Below are positions 1 to 5,148 of a DNA stretch of 5,148 nucleotides, in pieces (position 1 is the first letter of the stretch; each line of letters begins with the position of its first letter). Source of the DNA: Deltaproteobacteria bacterium (GTDB lineage: Bacteria; JAUYMQ01); NCBI GenBank assembly GCA_030698575.1, contig JAUYMQ010000186.1:1-5148 (forward strand). Direction: 5' to 3'. Made by a program: the position numbers and the translations under genes. The notes beneath the pieces are model-generated. The model saw nothing but the letters and a program-made list of their open reading frames with translations. It was not told where the DNA came from and ran no database searches.

Positions 1-267
1 GGCCTCAACCGTCGGTGTTCCCTCAACCACCTTCGCCAGGCTCGTCAGCACCTGTGGATAGATGTCGCGGCTATAGTTGTCCGCGTCCTCTCGCCGATCC
101 CACAGACTGATCGCAACCGCTTCGGAGCGGTCCGCGGCAACGAACGAAATCTCGTCCTTGAAACCGTTCTGCTTCCGCAGCAGGGGCAGGACGTCCCTCT
201 CGAGCGTCTGGGTAAACTCACCGGCCGTGTTGGCCTTCAGATGCATGGACACATTGCGTGCGTACAT
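1..267 (-). CDS. ABM-like small dimeric alpha/beta-barrel protein, C-terminus cut by window edge
   Basis: Seen: reading leftwards from ATG 267-265 the frame stays open to base 1 (89 codons, no stop reached). The peptide begins MYARNVSMHLKANTAGEFTQ and continues with VLPLLRKQNGFKDEISFV and AISLWDRREDADNYS. The Shine-Dalgarno AAGGAG sits 6 bases before the ATG. Family: this beta-strand, helix with an 'LLRKQ-GF' segment, then 'ISLWD' layout is typical of ~95-105 aa proteins of the antibiotic-biosynthesis-monooxygenase (ABM) superfamily, so only about ten residues should be missing. Most such small proteins have no known substrate, so a monooxygenase role is not shown. Context: it is the next gene downstream of the groESL remnant on the same strand, 76 bp after the old groEL stop, with no clear terminator between. 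It may now be read from the former groESL promoter. Confidence 0.8.
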   Translation of the reverse strand, partial: MYARNVSMHLKANTAGEFTQTLERDVLPLLRKQNGFKDEISFVAADRSEAVAISLWDRREDADNYSRDIYPQVLTSLAKVVEGTPTVEA

Positions 268-343: not shown

Positions 344-413
344 TCAGTACATCCCGCCCATGCCACGCCCCCGAGCGGGCCTCTGTATTGAATTCGAGGT
401 ACTTGGCAGCCAT
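344..413 (-). pseudogene. groEL: groEL remnant: 5' end fused out of frame to 3' end
   Basis: Seen: on the minus strand, ATG 413-411 opens MAAKYLEFNTEARS, the near-invariant start of GroEL (MAAK-x-L-x-F-x-x-EAR). It is preceded by GGAAGGAG 3 bases upstream and by a groES end 15 bases further. After codon 14 (base 372) the match stops. In another frame the DNA then reads RGMGGMY and a TGA at 346-344, the Gly-Met-rich tail typical of GroEL C-termini. About 520 of the usual ~545 codons are therefore missing, and the junction, near 369-376, is out of frame. The open frame from the ATG would give only a peptide of under 30 residues. GroEL is the 60-kDa ATP-driven chaperonin; this copy cannot make one. 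It is either true erosion of a second groESL copy or, less likely, an assembly deletion. Confidence 0.85.
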
Positions 414-428
414 CTACTCCTTCCTCGC

Positions 429-491
429 TCAGCTGAGCTTCGCGATGACGTCGGATTCCTTGATCAGGATGATCTCTTCCTCCCCGTGCCA
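429..491 (-). pseudogene. groES: groES remnant: C-terminal ~18-20 codons only
   Basis: Seen: the minus strand reads GEEEIILIKESDVIAKLS then TGA at 431-429, the classic C-terminal strand of the GroES co-chaperonin (GEE-x-x-IL-x-ESD-[IV]-A). Upstream of the GEEE the frame continues as SAVSQWH, which does not look like GroES, so the break is near 486-508. About 75-80 of the usual ~96 codons, including the start and mobile loop, are gone. The TGA is 15 bases from the groEL-remnant ATG, the ordinary groES-groEL arrangement, so this was a real operon. Its upstream control element at 509-571 is still intact, which makes a deletion between the leader and the 3' part of groES the simplest reading. Confidence 0.82.
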
Positions 492-508: not shown

Positions 509-520
509 CTAGTTAACTAG
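509..520. promoter_or_regulatory. Perfect 12-bp palindrome CTAGTTAACTAG, downstream box of operator copy 1
   Basis: CTAGTTAACTAG is its own reverse complement. It lies 31 bp downstream (in the groESL direction) of the long block at 551-571. The same TAGTTAACTAG lies at the same distance from the second copy of that block in front of hsp20 (1618-1628). It would lie in the leader of the former groES. This is an inferred operator half of the chaperone control element. Confidence 0.65.
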
Positions 521-541
521 TGGAAGTTTCAGATCTGTGAG

Positions 542-568
542 TGTATATTCATGTACTTAACTTGTCAA
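542..568 (-). promoter_or_regulatory. Candidate sigma70-type promoter of the former groESL operon
   Basis: On the minus strand a consensus TTGACA (568-563) is followed after 15 bases by TATACA (547-542). The -35 element lies inside the palindromic block 551-571, so a protein bound there would compete with RNA polymerase. The spacer is slightly short (15 versus 16-18). The second copy before hsp20 keeps TTGACA but has no clear -10 at this distance, so the promoter call is weaker than the operator call. Confidence 0.4.
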
Positions 569-571
569 GTA
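551..571 (-). promoter_or_regulatory. Operator block, copy 1 (21 bp identical to 1566-1586)
   Basis: Read on the minus strand it contains TACTTGACAAGTTAAGTAC plus AT and is identical over 21 bp to bases 1566-1586. Inside is the near-perfect palindrome ACTTG-A-CAAGT and the shared half-site CAAGTTAA (TTAACTTG on the other strand). It sits between the divergent groESL remnant and the XRE regulator gene, 82 bases before the regulator's start, so it could serve both. It does not resemble CIRCE (TTAGCACTC-N9-GAGTGCTAA) or HAIR (CTTGAGT-N7-ACTCAAG). Confidence 0.7.
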
Positions 572-640
572 CACCAATCGATTTACCCAGTCTTTGTCCC
601 AATGGTTCACCTATTACGGTTAATGACCCAAGTCGGCCCG

Positions 641-646
641 AGGAGG
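641..646 (+). promoter_or_regulatory. Shine-Dalgarno AGGAGG deciding the GTG start at 653
   Basis: A perfect AGGAGG stands 6 bases before GTG 653. The in-frame ATG at 551 has no such site, and the extra 34 residues (MYLTCQVHQS...) would be encoded by the operator block itself. Confidence 0.85.
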
Positions 647-652
647 AATCCC

Positions 653-1510
653 GTGGATGTCCCATTTGTGATCCGGCACCGGCTGGAGGAATTGGGGTTG
701 GAGCAGCAGGATCTCGCCCGCGCCGCCCGCGTGACCGACTCCTACATCTCGCAATTACTCACTCGGAAGAAGGCGCCCCCCGCACCGAGCCGCACCGCCA
801 TCTATGCCCGAATCGACAAGTTCTTGAAGCTTCCGAGCGGGGAGCTGGCGAAGCTGGCGGAGTTACAGCGCAAGGAAGAATTGAAGCGGGAATTGGGGGA
901 GGCACCCGTGCCCCTGTATCACGAGTTTCGTGCGTTGATCCTGCGCAAGTGCAATCGTGAGACGGAAAAACACGTCCGCGCGATCTTTGAACAGCAGCCC
1001 TTCGGCGAGCTCGAACGCCTAGTCACCCAGAAGCTGCTGGATGTGGTCAAGCGCGTGGCGAAAGACGAACTCGACAATGACTACTGGCTCCGCATGGTGG
1101 CCCAAGTCAGCGGCCGCAGCTATGAGGAGATGCGGGTCATCGTGCTCGAGTTCCTCGACACGGACATCTTCCACGTGTCCGCTGAGAACTGCGTCTCGTT
1201 CTTAGATCCGCTGATCGAATCCTGGGACATCGACCTCGCGACGTTTGGTCTGGAGATTGTCTTAAACCACAGCGTCGTCCCAGGGCAGGCGAAGCGATTC
1301 GAGTTTGTCGAGCGGGAAGCCGAACCGCCCGTCAGCGAAGAACCGGGGCTCCAGGAATTCCTGCAGGATCCTTCCCTCAGCGGCACCGCAACCGCCGAGG
1401 AAGTTGAGTTTCTCAAGGGGCTGACGTTCAACCACAAGCGACCGACGCCCCTCTATTACTACCGGGAGTTACAGAACTTCAGAGACCCGCTCCATTTTCG
1501 CACCCCGTGA
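653..1510 (+). CDS. XRE-type helix-turn-helix regulator, likely controlling the neighbouring chaperone genes
   Basis: Seen: 285 residues from GTG 653 (start fixed by AGGAGG 6 bases upstream). Residues ~5-60 form a Cro/C1-type helix-turn-helix: RHRLEELGLEQQDLARAARV, then DSYISQLLTRKKAPPAPS as recognition helix and wing. The remaining ~220 residues are mostly helical and carry RLVTQKLLDVVKRVAK (~122-137), ENCVSFLDPLIESWDIDLAT (~178-197) and a conserved-looking tail RPTPLYYYRELQNFRDPLHF (~263-282). I do not recognise a named effector domain there. There is no signal peptide or membrane segment, so it is a cytoplasmic DNA-binding protein. Context: flanked on both sides by copies of the same palindromic element, with hsp20 starting 132 bases after its stop and the groESL remnant diverging upstream. 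Inference: it binds these elements, controls hsp20 and formerly groESL, and probably its own gene. Whether it represses or activates cannot be told. Confidence 0.88.
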   Translation: MDVPFVIRHRLEELGLEQQDLARAARVTDSYISQLLTRKKAPPAPSRTAIYARIDKFLKLPSGELAKLAELQRKEELKRELGEAPVPLYHEFRALILRKCNRETEKHVRAIFEQQPFGELERLVTQKLLDVVKRVAKDELDNDYWLRMVAQVSGRSYEEMRVIVLEFLDTDIFHVSAENCVSFLDPLIESWDIDLATFGLEIVLNHSVVPGQAKRFEFVEREAEPPVSEEPGLQEFLQDPSLSGTATAEEVEFLKGLTFNHKRPTPLYYYRELQNFRDPLHFRTP

Positions 1511-1522
1511 GAGTCTTCGGCT

Positions 1523-1544
1523 AGTTAACTTGACCAGGTCAACT
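1523..1544. promoter_or_regulatory. Third operator-like palindrome, downstream of the regulator gene
   Basis: TTGACCAGGTCAA (1530-1542) is a perfect 6-1-6 inverted repeat. It extends outward as AGTTAAC on the left and CT on the right, and the left side reads CTAGTTAACTTG (1521-1532), sharing TTAACTTG with the 551-571 block and TAGTTAACT with the 12-bp palindrome. It lies 13 bases after the regulator stop and 112 before hsp20, as an extra upstream site for hsp20 control. Confidence 0.55.
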
Positions 1545-1565
1545 AATACCCGTTGCAGCCGATAT

Positions 1566-1586
1566 TACTTGACAAGTTAAGTACAT
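1566..1586 (+). promoter_or_regulatory. Operator block, copy 2, upstream of hsp20
   Basis: TACTTGACAAGTTAAGTAC plus AT, identical over 21 bp to the reverse strand of 551-571. It contains a consensus TTGACA at 1569-1574 that may be the hsp20 -35 element, though no good -10 is seen 16-18 bases later. It points toward hsp20 just as copy 1 points toward groESL. Confidence 0.7.
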
Positions 1587-1617
1587 TACAGCAGGTTGGA
1601 GTGGTTAGGACTGCGAA

Positions 1618-1628
1618 TAGTTAACTAG
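1618..1628. promoter_or_regulatory. Downstream box TAGTTAACTAG abutting the hsp20 ribosome binding site
   Basis: TAGTTAACTAG lies 31 bp after block 1566-1586, the same gap as in copy 1, and ends immediately before AAAGGAG. From the first T of TTGACA to the centre of GTTAAC is 53.5 bp in both copies. Confidence 0.65.
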
Positions 1629-1642: not shown

Positions 1643-2119
1643 ATGTTTGTTACCCAGAGGGACCCGATGCTGGACTTGCTGCATCAGCTGGAGCACCGGA
1701 TGGGCCGGAGCTTCAACGGCGAGCTGTTACGCGCGTCCGAGTGGCCGGTACCCGAGGCCGCGACGACCGCCTGGCTGCCGCTGGTGGACATCTTCGAGGA
1801 GCCCGATGTCATCCGCCTGGTGGCGGAGGTACCCGGGGTGAAGCCCGAGGACGTGAAGATTTCGGTAGAGGGCAACCTGCTGACGATCGCGGGCACGAAG
1901 GAGCAGGTGGCGGAGGAGAAGGCCGAGAAGGTCCATCGCTATGAGCGGACCTACGGCGCCTTCGAGCGGACGTTCAGGCTGTCGGCCTCGATCGATCCCA
2001 ACAAGATCAAGGCGACTTACGACCTCGGGGTGCTGACGATCGCGCTGCCGAAGGCGGAGACGGCCAAGCCCCGTCTGATCGAGGTGGCAGTGACGCCACA
2101 GAAGGCGTTGAACGCCTGA
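1643..2119 (+). CDS. Hsp20 / alpha-crystallin family small heat-shock protein
   Basis: Seen: 158 residues. A short N-terminal arm (DPMLDLLHQLEHRMGRSF) leads into an alpha-crystallin domain (~45-140) with PLVDIFEEPDVIRLVAEVPG, VKPEDVKISVEGNLLTIAG, RYERTYGAFERTFRL and the A-x-x-x-G-V-L-like TYDLGVLTIALPK. A short tail carries the IEV (146-148) I-x-I motif that joins dimers into oligomers. Length and domain order are normal for bacterial class A Hsp20. Role in the family: ATP-independent holdase that binds unfolding cytoplasmic proteins and passes them to DnaK or GroEL systems. Context: monocistronic, 132 bp after the XRE regulator, and preceded by the bipartite operator shared with the former groESL operon. 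That points to stress-induced expression under the same regulator. The start is secure (AAAGGAG 7 bases upstream). Confidence 0.96.
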   Translation: MFVTQRDPMLDLLHQLEHRMGRSFNGELLRASEWPVPEAATTAWLPLVDIFEEPDVIRLVAEVPGVKPEDVKISVEGNLLTIAGTKEQVAEEKAEKVHRYERTYGAFERTFRLSASIDPNKIKATYDLGVLTIALPKAETAKPRLIEVAVTPQKALNA

Positions 2120-2199: not shown

Positions 2200-2664
2200 C
2201 TATGCGGCCGTCGGCGGCAACTCGACGATCTCGAGCCAGTAGCGGCCCAGCACGTTCATCGCCTCCACCAGCCCCGAGAACGTGACGGGCTTCCTAATGA
2301 AGGAGTTCACGCCCAGCTGGTAGCTGCGCACGATGTCCTGGTCGAACCCTGACGTAGAGAGCACGACGACCGGAATGTCGCGCAACGTCTCGTCTCCCTT
2401 GATCACCTTCAGGGCCTCGCGCCCATCCATCTTCGGCATGTTGAGGTCCAGCAGGATCAATCCGGGACGCGGGGCCTTCCCGGTCTCCCCCGCGTACTCG
2501 CCGCGCTGGTAGAGGTAGTCGAGCAACTGGTCGCCATCCTCGACGAAGCGCACCGCGTTCGCGACGTGCGCGTCTTCCAGCGCCTGCTGGGTGAGCATCC
2601 GGTCGTCCGCATCGTCATCGCAGATGAGGATCGTGATGGGGATTTTGTTCTTGTCTCGGGTCAT
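2200..2664 (-). CDS. Single-domain response regulator, Rcp1-like receiver
   Basis: Seen: 154 residues, all receiver domain. The acidic pocket is D16-D18 (ILICDDDADDR), the phospho-acceptor is D73 in LILLDLNMPKMDG, the switch residue is S103/T104 in VVVLSTSG, and the conserved lysine is K125 in FIRKPVTF. The tail RYWLEIVELPP is typical of Rcp1-type receivers that partner phytochrome-like or other SHDLQEP-type kinases. No output domain follows, so it acts by protein-protein contact or as a phosphate relay in the cytoplasm. Context: its ATG overlaps the kinase stop as ATGA (2664-2661), so translation is coupled and the kinase is its likely phosphodonor. Frameshifts in the kinase tracts could therefore also lower synthesis of this protein. 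Confidence 0.95.
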   Translation of the reverse strand: MTRDKNKIPITILICDDDADDRMLTQQALEDAHVANAVRFVEDGDQLLDYLYQRGEYAGETGKAPRPGLILLDLNMPKMDGREALKVIKGDETLRDIPVVVLSTSGFDQDIVRSYQLGVNSFIRKPVTFSGLVEAMNVLGRYWLEIVELPPTAA

Positions 2665-3842
2665 GACATGAATCCTTTAGCCGCCTGCGTGACCGGTAGG
2701 GTGACGGTGAACGTCGCCCCCTGGCCGGCAGTGCTCGTGGCGGCGATCGTGCCGCCGTGCCGCTCGACAATCTTGCGGCAAATGGCGAGGCCAATGCCGG
2801 AGCCTTCGTACTCCGCGCGGCCGTGGAGGCGCACGAACATCCGGAAGATCTTGCCCGCGTGCTTCTCGCTGAACCCGATCCCGTTGTCCGTCACCGTGAT
2901 GGTACAGTCCGCGCCGCCGGGGGGGGGGCTCGAGCAGCTGAGCCGGACCACGGGCGGCATGTCCTTCTGGCGGTATTTGAGCGCGTTGCCGAGCAGATTC
3001 TGCAGCAGCTGGCGCATCTGAAGCGCGTCGGCGTCGATCACGGGCAGCTCGCCCACCTCCACGCGGCCGCCGGACTCCGCGATGGACGTCTCGAGGTCGG
3101 CGATGACCTCCCGGGCCACCCGGGCGAGGTCGGTGCGGACGAACGGCTGGACGCGCGTGGTCACCTGCGAATACAGGAGCAGGTCGCTGATCAGGGTGCG
3201 CATGCGAGCGGCCGCGCTGAGCATGCGGGCGAGGTGCTCCCGCGCATTGCCTTCGAGCGCCGGCCCCGCGGACGTGTTCAGCAGGTCGCCGAACGACAGG
3301 ATCTTGCGCACCGGCTCCTGCAAGTCATGGGACGCGACGGACGCGAACTCATCCAGCGCCGCGTTGGAGCGCTCGAGCTCCCGGTGCTGCTCCGCCAGGC
3401 GCCATTCCGTGAGGCGGCGAGCCGTGATGTCCTCGATCGCCAGCAGGATGATCCGCGGGAGGTTGGGTCCTTGCGACACGAGCCGGGCGTTGAGCAGCAT
3501 GATCTTGCGGCCGATGCCGGGAAACTCGTGGTCGACGTCGAAATCATTCAATTGCGGCTCGACCGCGAGCTTGTCGCGCAGCAGCTCGCGGAGGGGTGCA
3601 ATGTCCCATTGGCCGTCGCCGAGCGTGAAGAGGACCTCGCCGATCGTGTCCTGGGGCTCTACGCGAAAGGTGCGAAAGAAAGCCCGATTCGCCTGCGTGA
3701 CCCGGAATGCGGCGTCCAGGACGATGAGGGGCTCCCGGACGGTGTCGATGATATCGAGCAGCAGCCGCTGGGCGGCGGGCACATCGCGCGCCGCCTCGTC
3801 GGGGGGGGGGAGGGTCATGGGCAACGACTCGGTGGCAGGCAC
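2661..3842 (-). CDS. Cytoplasmic PAS sensor histidine kinase
   Basis: Seen: 393 residues from GTG 3842, chosen because GAGGAGA lies 7 bases upstream; the in-frame ATG at codon 9 lacks such a site. A PAS domain (~27-140; EPLIVLDAAFRVTQANRAF ... LLAIEDITARR) is followed by a linking helix and HisKA with phospho-acceptor His172 in ASVASHDLQEPVRKI. The HATPase domain follows: N box LLQNLLGNALKYR (~279-291), G1 DNGIGF (319-324), F box around FRMF (333-336) and G2 EGSGIGLAI (346-354). There is no membrane segment, so it senses a cytoplasmic or small diffusible signal; no cofactor-binding residue is obvious in the PAS. Context: coupled to the receiver gene by ATGA and divergent from a LuxR-type regulator. 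Odd: two C10 tracts in the coding strand, at codons 11-14 and 304-308, each encoding three prolines. Confidence 0.95.
   Translation of the reverse strand: MPATESLPMTLPPPDEAARDVPAAQRLLLDIIDTVREPLIVLDAAFRVTQANRAFFRTFRVEPQDTIGEVLFTLGDGQWDIAPLRELLRDKLAVEPQLNDFDVDHEFPGIGRKIMLLNARLVSQGPNLPRIILLAIEDITARRLTEWRLAEQHRELERSNAALDEFASVASHDLQEPVRKILSFGDLLNTSAGPALEGNAREHLARMLSAAARMRTLISDLLLYSQVTTRVQPFVRTDLARVAREVIADLETSIAESGGRVEVGELPVIDADALQMRQLLQNLLGNALKYRQKDMPPVVRLSCSSPPPGGADCTITVTDNGIGFSEKHAGKIFRMFVRLHGRAEYEGSGIGLAICRKIVERHGGTIAATSTAGQGATFTVTLPVTQAAKGFMS
2919..2928. repeat. G10 homopolymer tract inside the kinase gene (ATPase domain)
   Basis: Ten G on the plus strand, i.e. C10 in the kinase coding strand. 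It encodes the S-P-P-P-G stretch between an HATPase beta strand (VVRLSCS) and the next (DCTITVTDNG). Loss or gain of one base would frameshift the kinase before its DNGIGF motif and abolish ATP binding. Confidence 0.85.
3801..3810. repeat. G10 homopolymer tract at the 5' end of the kinase gene
   Basis: Ten G on the plus strand, C10 in the coding strand. It begins at codon 11 and encodes L-P-P-P-D before the PAS domain. A one-base change here would end kinase synthesis near the N-terminus. Confidence 0.85.
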
Positions 3843-3849
3843 AGCAGTT

Positions 3850-3856
3850 TCTCCTC
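3850..3856 (-). promoter_or_regulatory. Shine-Dalgarno GAGGAGA deciding the GTG start of the kinase
   Basis: GAGGAGA on the minus strand stands 7 bases before GTG 3842. The alternative ATG at 3818 has GTTGCCC immediately before it and no purine-rich site. Confidence 0.8.
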
Positions 3857-3878
3857 GCGCGATGAGCCTTCAGATGGA

Positions 3879-3891
3879 GGGTACCGTACCC
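3879..3891. promoter_or_regulatory. Perfect 6-1-6 palindrome between the divergent signalling genes
   Basis: GGGTACCGTACCC is a perfect inverted repeat about a central C. It sits 37 bases before the kinase GTG and 58 before the LuxR-type regulator ATG. Its position suits an operator controlling both genes, perhaps bound by the LuxR-type regulator. A short GCAC-N4-GTGC repeat (3909-3920) follows on the regulator side. No convincing -35/-10 pair was found in the 106-bp spacer. Confidence 0.5.
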
Positions 3892-3948
3892 AGGGGGCAC
3901 GCGCTATCGCACAATCGTGCTAGAGGATTCCTGCTACCTTTGGTCGCC

Positions 3949-4596
3949 ATGCCTCCGAAAGACACGATCAGGGTTGCCATCATCGACGACAATCGCCTGG
4001 TGCGCGAAGCGCTCACGGCGATGCTCAATAGACTCACGGACATCCACGTCGTCTCCTCGGACGTCGCCGACTCGGCATCGCTCGCCGAGACGAAGCCGGA
4101 CGTGCTGCTGCTCGACGTGGGGCTGCGGGACCAGGACAGCCTGCGCGTGGCCGCCACGCTCAGGCAGGAGAACCCGGACGCGAAGATCATCGTGATGGAT
4201 CTCCTCCCGGTGAACGAGGAAATCATGGAGTATGTGAACGCGGGGGTGTGCGGGTTCGTCCTCAAGGATGCCACCTTCGAGGAGTTCATCGCGACGATCC
4301 GGTCGGTCGCTACGGGCACGAAGGTCTTGCCGCCCCGCATGACGGAATCGCTCTTTTCCCAGATCGCGAAGGAGGTGGACGGCCAAGAGCCCGCGCACGT
4401 CCTCGAAGACGTGCGCATGACGCCGCGCGAGCGTGAGGTGATCGACCTGATTGGCGAGGGGCTGAGCAACAAGGAGATCGCCCAGCGTCTCAACATCGCG
4501 ACCCATACCGTCAAGAGTCACGTGCGGAACGTCATGGAGAAGCTGGCGTTGCACACGCGGCTGCAGATCGCCGCGTATTCCCACCGCGAGGGGTAG
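3949..4596 (+). CDS. NarL/FixJ-type response regulator with an unusual switch residue
   Basis: Seen: 215 residues from ATG 3949. Receiver domain: acidic pair D13-D14 (VAIIDDNRLVRE), phospho-acceptor D56 in VLLLDVGL and conserved lysine K106 in GFVLKD. The position normally holding Ser/Thr at the end of beta-4 is D84 (IIVMDLLP). A linker (~125-155) leads to a LuxR-type helix-turn-helix, MTPREREVIDLIGEGLSNKE to NVMEKLALHTRLQIA (157-208). Role: transcription factor switched by phosphorylation. Context: divergent from the PAS kinase across a 106-bp spacer with a palindrome, so the kinase is the likely partner. The start is uncertain because no good Shine-Dalgarno is close to ATG 3949. The frame stays open far upstream, but the receiver fold begins at residue 7 here; an in-frame ATG at 3874 would add 25 residues with no receiver similarity. 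Confidence 0.93.
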   Translation: MPPKDTIRVAIIDDNRLVREALTAMLNRLTDIHVVSSDVADSASLAETKPDVLLLDVGLRDQDSLRVAATLRQENPDAKIIVMDLLPVNEEIMEYVNAGVCGFVLKDATFEEFIATIRSVATGTKVLPPRMTESLFSQIAKEVDGQEPAHVLEDVRMTPREREVIDLIGEGLSNKEIAQRLNIATHTVKSHVRNVMEKLALHTRLQIAAYSHREG

Positions 4597-4714: not shown

Positions 4715-5148
4715 ATGTTCGCATGCAATCGTCCTATCATGCAGCTCGCAGTCTTGATCGCCTTGGGGTCGCTGTCGGCGGCCTGCAGCGACTCCCCGTC
4801 CGGCGTGACCGGGCCCTCGTTCGAGGGCGTATCGGTCGAGGCGTCGAATTTCGCAGTGCTCGCCAACGCAGGCGTCACCTGCACCGACGGCACCATCATC
4901 GGCGACGTGGGCACGTTCAGCGCCACTGGCGCGATCACCCGCACCACTTGCCCCATCACGGGGACGTTGCACGTGGGGGACGGCGTCGCCACACAGGCCT
5001 ACAATGACTTCCTCAACACCTACGCCGTGCTCGCCCCCCAGGCGGGGGACGTCTGCACGACGTTGACGGGCACCCTCGCCGGCGTGATTCTGGCGCCCGG
5101 TGTCTACTGCTTCGATGCGGCGGCGACGTTGACGGGCGTGTTGACGCT
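4715..5148 (+). CDS. DUF3494 (ice-binding-like) lipoprotein, 3' end cut by window edge
   Basis: Seen: open from ATG 4715 to the window end (144 codons, no stop). GGAG lies 9 bases before the ATG. Residues 1-23 are a signal peptide (hydrophobic LAVLIALGSLSAA) ending in a lipobox with Cys24, so the mature protein should be lipid-anchored. The rest matches the start of the DUF3494 beta-solenoid: SNFAVLANAGVTC, IIGDVGTFSATGAIT, VGDGVATQAYNDF, LTGTLAGVILAPGVYCFDAA and TLTGVLTL. Family: members include ice-binding proteins of cold-living microbes, but many are adhesin-like surface proteins with no tested ice activity. Odd: four cysteines (56, 79, 114, 132) that could form two disulfides. The usual length of ~220-250 residues implies about 80-100 residues lie beyond the window. 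A 14-bp DNA repeat (5058-5071, 5124-5137) encodes successive TLTG turns. Confidence 0.87.
   Translation, partial: MFACNRPIMQLAVLIALGSLSAACSDSPSGVTGPSFEGVSVEASNFAVLANAGVTCTDGTIIGDVGTFSATGAITRTTCPITGTLHVGDGVATQAYNDFLNTYAVLAPQAGDVCTTLTGTLAGVILAPGVYCFDAAATLTGVLT
5058..5137 (+). repeat. Direct 14-bp repeat encoding TLTG solenoid turns
   Basis: CGACGTTGACGGGC occurs at 5058-5071 and 5124-5137, 66 bp (22 codons) apart and in the same frame. It encodes T/A-T-L-T-G, the motif that recurs in the beta-solenoid coils of DUF3494 proteins. It fits internal protein repetition rather than a DNA site. Confidence 0.6.

Follow-up and report, generated by a model that had tools for sequence, protein, structure and literature searches.

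A putative XRE repressor-operator switch for accessory chaperone genes, with operator sites spaced close to whole helical turns

The stretch of DNA analysed here (the window, 5,148 nucleotides) carries an XRE-type regulator gene followed by an hsp20 gene; upstream of the regulator and on the opposite strand are a groES-groEL remnant and, cut by the contig end, the gene of an ABM-like small protein (Table 1). A full-length relative of the latter gave a value of 0.0017 with the Pfam ABM model, which is below the curated cut-off. Downstream of hsp20 a cluster encodes a response regulator, a PAS/histidine kinase and a LuxR-type response regulator (2200-4596), and a response regulator related to this cluster is also present near the XRE gene in the relatives L007 and L008. 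The start of an Ice_binding-like protein (PF11999, above the Pfam cut-off) occupies positions 4715-5146.

Table 1. Coordinates of the genes, promoters and operator sites of the window.
Feature	Position	Strand	Remarks
ABM-like small protein gene	1-267	-	cut by contig end
groES-groEL remnant	347-482	-	groES last 17 codons 482-432; groEL first 13 codons 413-375, then GMGGMY to 347
O1 of XRE/groESL divergent array	513-530	+	TTAAC-N8-GTTTC; second half degenerate; contains TAGTTAACTAG box
Divergent sigma-70 promoter to groESL remnant	540-568	-	TTGACA (568-563), 17 bp, TACACT (545-540)
O2 of XRE/groESL array	552-568	+	inside block 551-571; core TTAAC-TT-GTCAA 557-568
Inferred XRE promoter	557-585	+	TTAACT, 17 bp, GATTTA
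O3 in XRE leader	606-623	+	TTCAC-N8-GTTAA; 1 mismatch; position conserved in relatives
XRE-type regulator gene, 285 aa	653-1510	+	N-terminal helix-turn-helix (HTH) and ~200-residue mostly helical C-terminal part
O3-equivalent of hsp20 array	1525-1542	+	perfect TTAAC-N8-GTCAA; 41 bp from O2 core
O2 of hsp20 array	1564-1585	-	core 1569-1580 TTGAC-AA-GTTAA; exact inverted copy of XRE O2 (block 1566-1586)
hsp20 promoter	1569-1597	+	TTGACA, 17 bp, CAGGTT (weak -10)
O1-equivalent of hsp20 array	1607-1624	-	TTAAC-N8-GTCCT; contains second TAGTTAACTAG box
hsp20 (small heat-shock protein)	1643-2119	+	Pfam HSP20 2.3e-24; array-bearing copies of relatives 83-92% identical

The groESL remnant, recognised as such in an earlier note on this DNA, was confirmed by comparison with the nearest relative, L006: the groES part matches GroES residues 86-102 of this relative at 100% identity, and in the groEL part (413-347) the start of GroEL, MAAKYLEFNTEAR, is joined directly to the GroEL C-terminal GMGGMY. 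In the segment 347-508 groES and groEL have each lost most of their length, and the adjoining operator array is retained. The groESL operon of the window thus appears to have decayed while hsp20 kept its own mirrored array, with the reservation that the deletions could be assembly faults; nearly all source genomes are metagenome assemblies.

The earlier note had described a 21-bp block, 31 bp of unrelated sequence and a second box, present in two mirror-image copies, as a two-site binding architecture shared by the groESL remnant and hsp20. The layout holds: the 21-nt arms (551-571 and 1566-1586) are inverted and 100% complementary, and the box TAGTTAACTAG occurs at 509-519 (minus) and 1618-1628 (plus), nowhere else in the 4.13-Mb genome and at 31 bp from the block in both copies. 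The first base of TTGACA is at 568 (minus) and at 1569 (plus), and from there to the centre of GTTAAC the distance is 53.5 bp in each. The gap sequence differs between the XRE-side and the hsp20-side copy, so that boxes and gap length are indeed fixed where the sequence between them has diverged. The architecture is multi-site as proposed but not two-site, since a third site was missed in each array (606-623 and 1525-1542); both named targets stand, and the list was incomplete in that the XRE gene itself is also served. The box TAGTTAACTAG is the better-kept half of an 18-bp inverted-repeat site, O1, the other half of which is degenerate in this genome. In the XRE/groESL array O1 keeps a fixed register with that of relatives, and O2 shares bases with the -35 box of each divergent promoter. 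The hsp20 array has the mirror orientation of the XRE array; the distance between the centres of O1 and O2 is 41.0 bp in both, and O2 and O3 are 41 bp apart in the hsp20 array and 52 bp apart in the XRE array. The perfect O3-equivalent at hsp20 is of a type with just three exact matches genome-wide. When the window's own genome was scanned with model R2, only the two window arrays matched, both of which were in the R2 training set.

The XRE protein meets the 23-bit cut-off of Pfam HTH_3 with 23.0 bits, a borderline assignment by sequence, and reaches 25.7 bits with HTH_31, below the cut-off of 27. In its AlphaFold2 model (pLDDT 78) the C-terminal region is mostly helical. Foldseek matched the HTH of the model to those of HigA, SinR and P22 C2, with ClgR and DdrO also among the matches. 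This search of PDB folds returned HTH matches alone, none with E <= 0.001 (best 0.015), and gave no confident structural match and no recognised fold for the C-terminal domain.

Relatives of the window were reached via the XRE protein and not via taxonomy. A tblastn search against genome contigs gave 216 relatives, the best 80 of which have 64-85% identity, in bins named Gemmatimonadota, Acidobacteriota, Rokubacteria/NC10, Nitrospirae and Proteobacteria. Of 151 genomes sampled from the class to which the isolate Acidobacteriaceae bacterium KBS 96 belongs (Terriglobia, to judge by the name), 44 gave the gene, and of 200 genomes from the phylum of G248, a Gemmatimonadota genome, 17 have a match, full-length in about half of the cases. 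L011, a Rokubacteria sequence, is nested among Gemmatimonadota on the XRE tree. This nesting and the patchy spread suggest that the XRE module is transferred horizontally, although metagenome bins make up most of the sources. L026 (~9395), L047 (~7344) and L123 (~3013) each have a second XRE copy, intact or decayed, with an array of its own; judged from these sequences, the XRE-array module is also duplicated. Within the Terriglobia sample of 151 genomes, 33 of the 44 with XRE and one of the 107 without it gave arrays (Fisher p 1e-22). Part of this co-occurrence is automatic, most arrays being next to an XRE gene. The exception is G166, with two arrays and no XRE detected. A scan with model R1 found one to nine arrays per genome, mostly one, in 36 genomes.

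Nearly all of the 79 XRE loci read carry an operator array of three sites, O1-O2-O3, of the form TTRAC-N7/8-GTYAA. Counting half-site pairs with spacers up to 21 in the 250 bp upstream of these genes gave 46 TTRAC-N8-GTYAA pairs (0.2 expected), 21 with N7 (0.1 expected) and 18 with the N2 core (0 expected), and hardly any enrichment at other spacers; the O2 core in relatives is TTGAC-NN-GTCAA. The centres of O1 and O2 are 19.5-21 bp apart in 50 loci and 41 bp apart in five loci and the window. The 31-bp gap of the earlier note is real as the 41-bp O1-O2 class, a Gemmatimonadota form, but does not extend to most relatives, in which O1 is two turns closer. L175 and L177 have exactly the window's spacing of TTGACA and GTTAAC, with a gap of 45 bp, and the gap is 46 bp in L176 and L006. 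Between O2 and O3 the distance is 39-42 bp in 25 loci and 49-52 bp in 30 loci, with exceptions of 44-45 bp in one Acidobacterial clade (5 loci) and of 31 and 37 bp in two loci.

Expressed in helical turns, these spacing classes come near 2, 4, 4 and 5. The short and long O2-O3 spacings (about four versus five turns) interchange at least 9-10 times on the XRE tree, and among nine independent pairs differing in this spacing six are shifted by 8-12.5 bp, one by 3 and two by more. The selection on spacing claimed in the earlier note is borne out by this clustering near whole turns and by the repeated switches of about one turn. That roughly one face of the DNA carries all three sites, phased by whole helical turns, may be regarded as well supported; it falls short of proven because few independent events were sampled.

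The usual divergent partner of the XRE gene is that of the ABM-like protein (cluster 3, about 55 loci). The divergent neighbour is directly Hsp20 in L006, L049 and L057 and directly GroES-GroEL in L009, L018, L021 and L082. Arrays without an intact adjoining XRE gene were found before Hsp20 (L049, L119, L128, L166, L170), before ABM or ABM-GroES-GroEL (L119, L120, L124, L163, L164, L169) and before a glycosyltransferase gene (L028). For L122, L134 and L172 the target could not be determined, as the contig or the reading ends too near the array, and the weak model matches in L125 and in L123, where by eye the XRE copy looks decayed, were left out of the targets. A glycosyltransferase gene lies beside the array or the XRE gene in several Acidobacteriota (L028 at 9172, L126 at 4056-6200) and represents a non-chaperone target. 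Gemmatimonadota-type hsp20 copies that are 82-92% identical to that of the window have an array in five of seven cases, the window counted, and a partial one in L178; no array was found upstream of more distant hsp20 copies. The expectation of the earlier note that relatives with the same XRE gene carry the pattern before chaperone genes was fulfilled for groES, hsp20 and groESL; dnaK and clp genes were not seen among the array targets. A Pfam search of several neighbour proteins gave nothing above the cut-off.

In 75 of the 79 loci O2 includes a TTGACA on the chaperone-side strand, followed in 60 loci by the best -10 at a spacer of 17 bp; the mean -10 score on this side is 4.2 versus 2.9 in shuffled sequence. 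Among the invariant columns of the Acidobacterial alignment are the -35 and two -10 bases, and the chaperone-side promoter of many Acidobacterial loci is a near-consensus TTGACA-N17-TATTAT. The inferred XRE promoter of relatives is TTGACT-N17-GATTAT, and the hsp20 promoter stretch of the window is also visible in L177. With the start estimated at 7 bp after the -10, O1 lies at about +4 to +21 of both the groESL-side and the hsp20 promoter of the window. This is the position in Gemmatimonadota, while in Acidobacteriota O1 lies over the chaperone-side -10. The O3 side of the array covers the XRE leader.

Two kinds of groES can be distinguished in the relatives: housekeeping-type copies with CIRCE (0-1 mismatch in 11 loci) and no array, and XRE-linked copies with the array and no CIRCE (L214, L216, L217, L221). 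The other groES of the window's genome (L206) has neither. The window has no match to CIRCE (TTAGCACTC-N9-GAGTGCTAA) or HAIR (CTTGAGT-N7-ACTCAAG), each searched with up to 3 mismatches, in agreement with the earlier note, according to which the boxes match neither.

Rfam gave no match in the window, and no known ROSE or RNA thermometer family was found in the hsp20 leader. A hairpin over the Shine-Dalgarno sequence (CAACC-AAGGA-GGTTG) is present in about half of 40 ABM leaders, on the minus strand upstream of XRE (L017, L022, L041 and L052, for example), with paired changes to CACCC/GGGTG in L022 and GGACC/GGTCC in L041; it is possible, from its sequence, that this hairpin acts as an RNA thermometer. 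In 20 of 79 loci, such as L015, L020, L025, L031, L035 and L050, the stretch from O1 to the ABM start contains TCAGGTTATCTGAA once or twice, paired copies being 19 bp apart.

The observed sites, spacing, promoter sequences, gene context and co-occurrence are best read, with a probability of about 0.72, as an autoregulated XRE repressor-operator switch for accessory chaperone genes. The identity of the binder, repression and cooperativity are inferred in the absence of binding or expression data, and the inference of heat as the signal has the targets as its sole basis. An XRE dimer would bind each of the three sites, two, four or five turns apart. Of the two divergent sigma-70 promoters, both would have their -35 box under the middle site; the outer sites would lie over the XRE leader and, on the chaperone side, over the promoter -10 or about +4 to +21. 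Both promoters would be silent when the dimers bind cooperatively, and protein damage or heat could release the repressor, via the C-terminal domain, in which no fold is recognised, or via chaperone titration. Autorepression together with chaperone-side repression is the most economical assumption because the sites sit where a bound protein blocks transcription, and near-whole-turn spacing suggests contacts between dimers on one DNA face. Against an XRE repressor stand the degenerate half of both O1 sites of the window and the spacing outliers of 44-45, 31 and 37 bp.

Site position alone is also compatible with activation and does not exclude it. The XRE protein may bind the array mainly as an activator or mixed switch, recruiting polymerase at the chaperone promoter and repressing only itself: dual action is common among regulators, O2 adjoins the -35, which is the place of class II activators, and the -10 of the window's hsp20 is weak. 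We consider this unlikely, as O2 is on the -35 itself and O1 over the -10 or just past the inferred start, and the near-consensus Acidobacterial promoters should need no help. Slightly less probable again is binding by another protein (HspR-, HrcA- or CtsR-like, or unidentified), which would leave XRE merely a regulated neighbour. Arrays several kb from XRE or on other contigs, and those of G166, would fit such a protein; however, the array tracks XRE (33/44 versus 1/107), CIRCE and HAIR are missing from the window, and the inverted sites have a size that fits dimeric XRE proteins such as P22 C2 and SinR, both HTH structures of the Foldseek list.

Two further explanations were considered. Strong divergent sigma-70 promoters with an RNA-level thermometer, the palindromes being by-products, would account for several invariant columns through TTGACA and TAnnnT and for the Shine-Dalgarno hairpin of the ABM leaders; yet neither the half-sites of O1 and O3 nor their phasing belongs to a promoter, O1 of Acidobacteriota lies at the -10, outside the transcript, and Rfam is silent on the window, so that little credence can be given to it. 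Least credible is a recent local promoter duplication kept by chance and without regulatory meaning. The mirrored hsp20 array and the duplicated arrays and XRE genes of L026, L047 and L049 agree with duplication as such, but the gaps have diverged where boxes and spacing are fixed, and several phyla have these boxes and spacing classes in common. Recent duplication alone is contradicted by the relatives and was rejected.

The XRE repressor-operator switch can be extended, tentatively and at slightly less than even odds, to a horizontally spread second heat-shock switch parallel to HrcA-CIRCE in the same cells, in which an XRE repressor with an unknown sensor domain would cooperatively shut a bidirectional promoter through three phased operators, possibly together with a thermometer hairpin over the Shine-Dalgarno sequence in the leader of the gene that comes first on the chaperone side. 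If true, regulator, operator and targets would be named for accessory chaperones across several phyla, two of which, Acidobacteriota and Gemmatimonadota, are abundant in soil. The O2-O3 switches between about four and five turns, at least nine on the XRE tree, would be a natural experiment on operator phasing, and two separate heat-shock circuits would be predicted for the two groESL copies of one cell.

No paper on the XRE-array system or on an accessory-chaperone regulator of Acidobacteriota or Gemmatimonadota was found among open-licence papers, and the switch appears to be undescribed and separate from the standard heat-shock switch. ClgR and DdrO are XRE-type regulators with an XRE HTH controlling stress genes; the HTH of both matched that of the window protein, no full-length homology to it was found, and their operators differ in sequence from the window array. 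The phage-type XRE repressors (P22 C2, 434) and SinR share the HTH fold, several inverted-repeat sites over back-to-back promoters and the inferred autorepression; the differences are the chaperone targets, the sites 2, 4 or 5 turns apart and the C-terminal domain without a confident structural match. The CtsR box, for which no pattern search was made, is a direct heptad repeat as opposed to the inverted repeats of the window. Identity with HspR-HAIR and with HrcA-CIRCE was rejected, as neither operator is present in the window at up to 3 mismatches. HspR-HAIR is similar in autoregulation, chaperone targets and, superficially, the half-site CTTGAx, but HspR is a MerR-type protein and the window protein is XRE-type. 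With HrcA-CIRCE, the heat-shock repressor system of groESL and dnaK, the array shares an inverted-repeat operator before groESL and the inferred repression of chaperone genes; it differs in operator sequence and protein family, and in the relatives CIRCE belongs to the housekeeping groES and the array to the XRE-linked groES.
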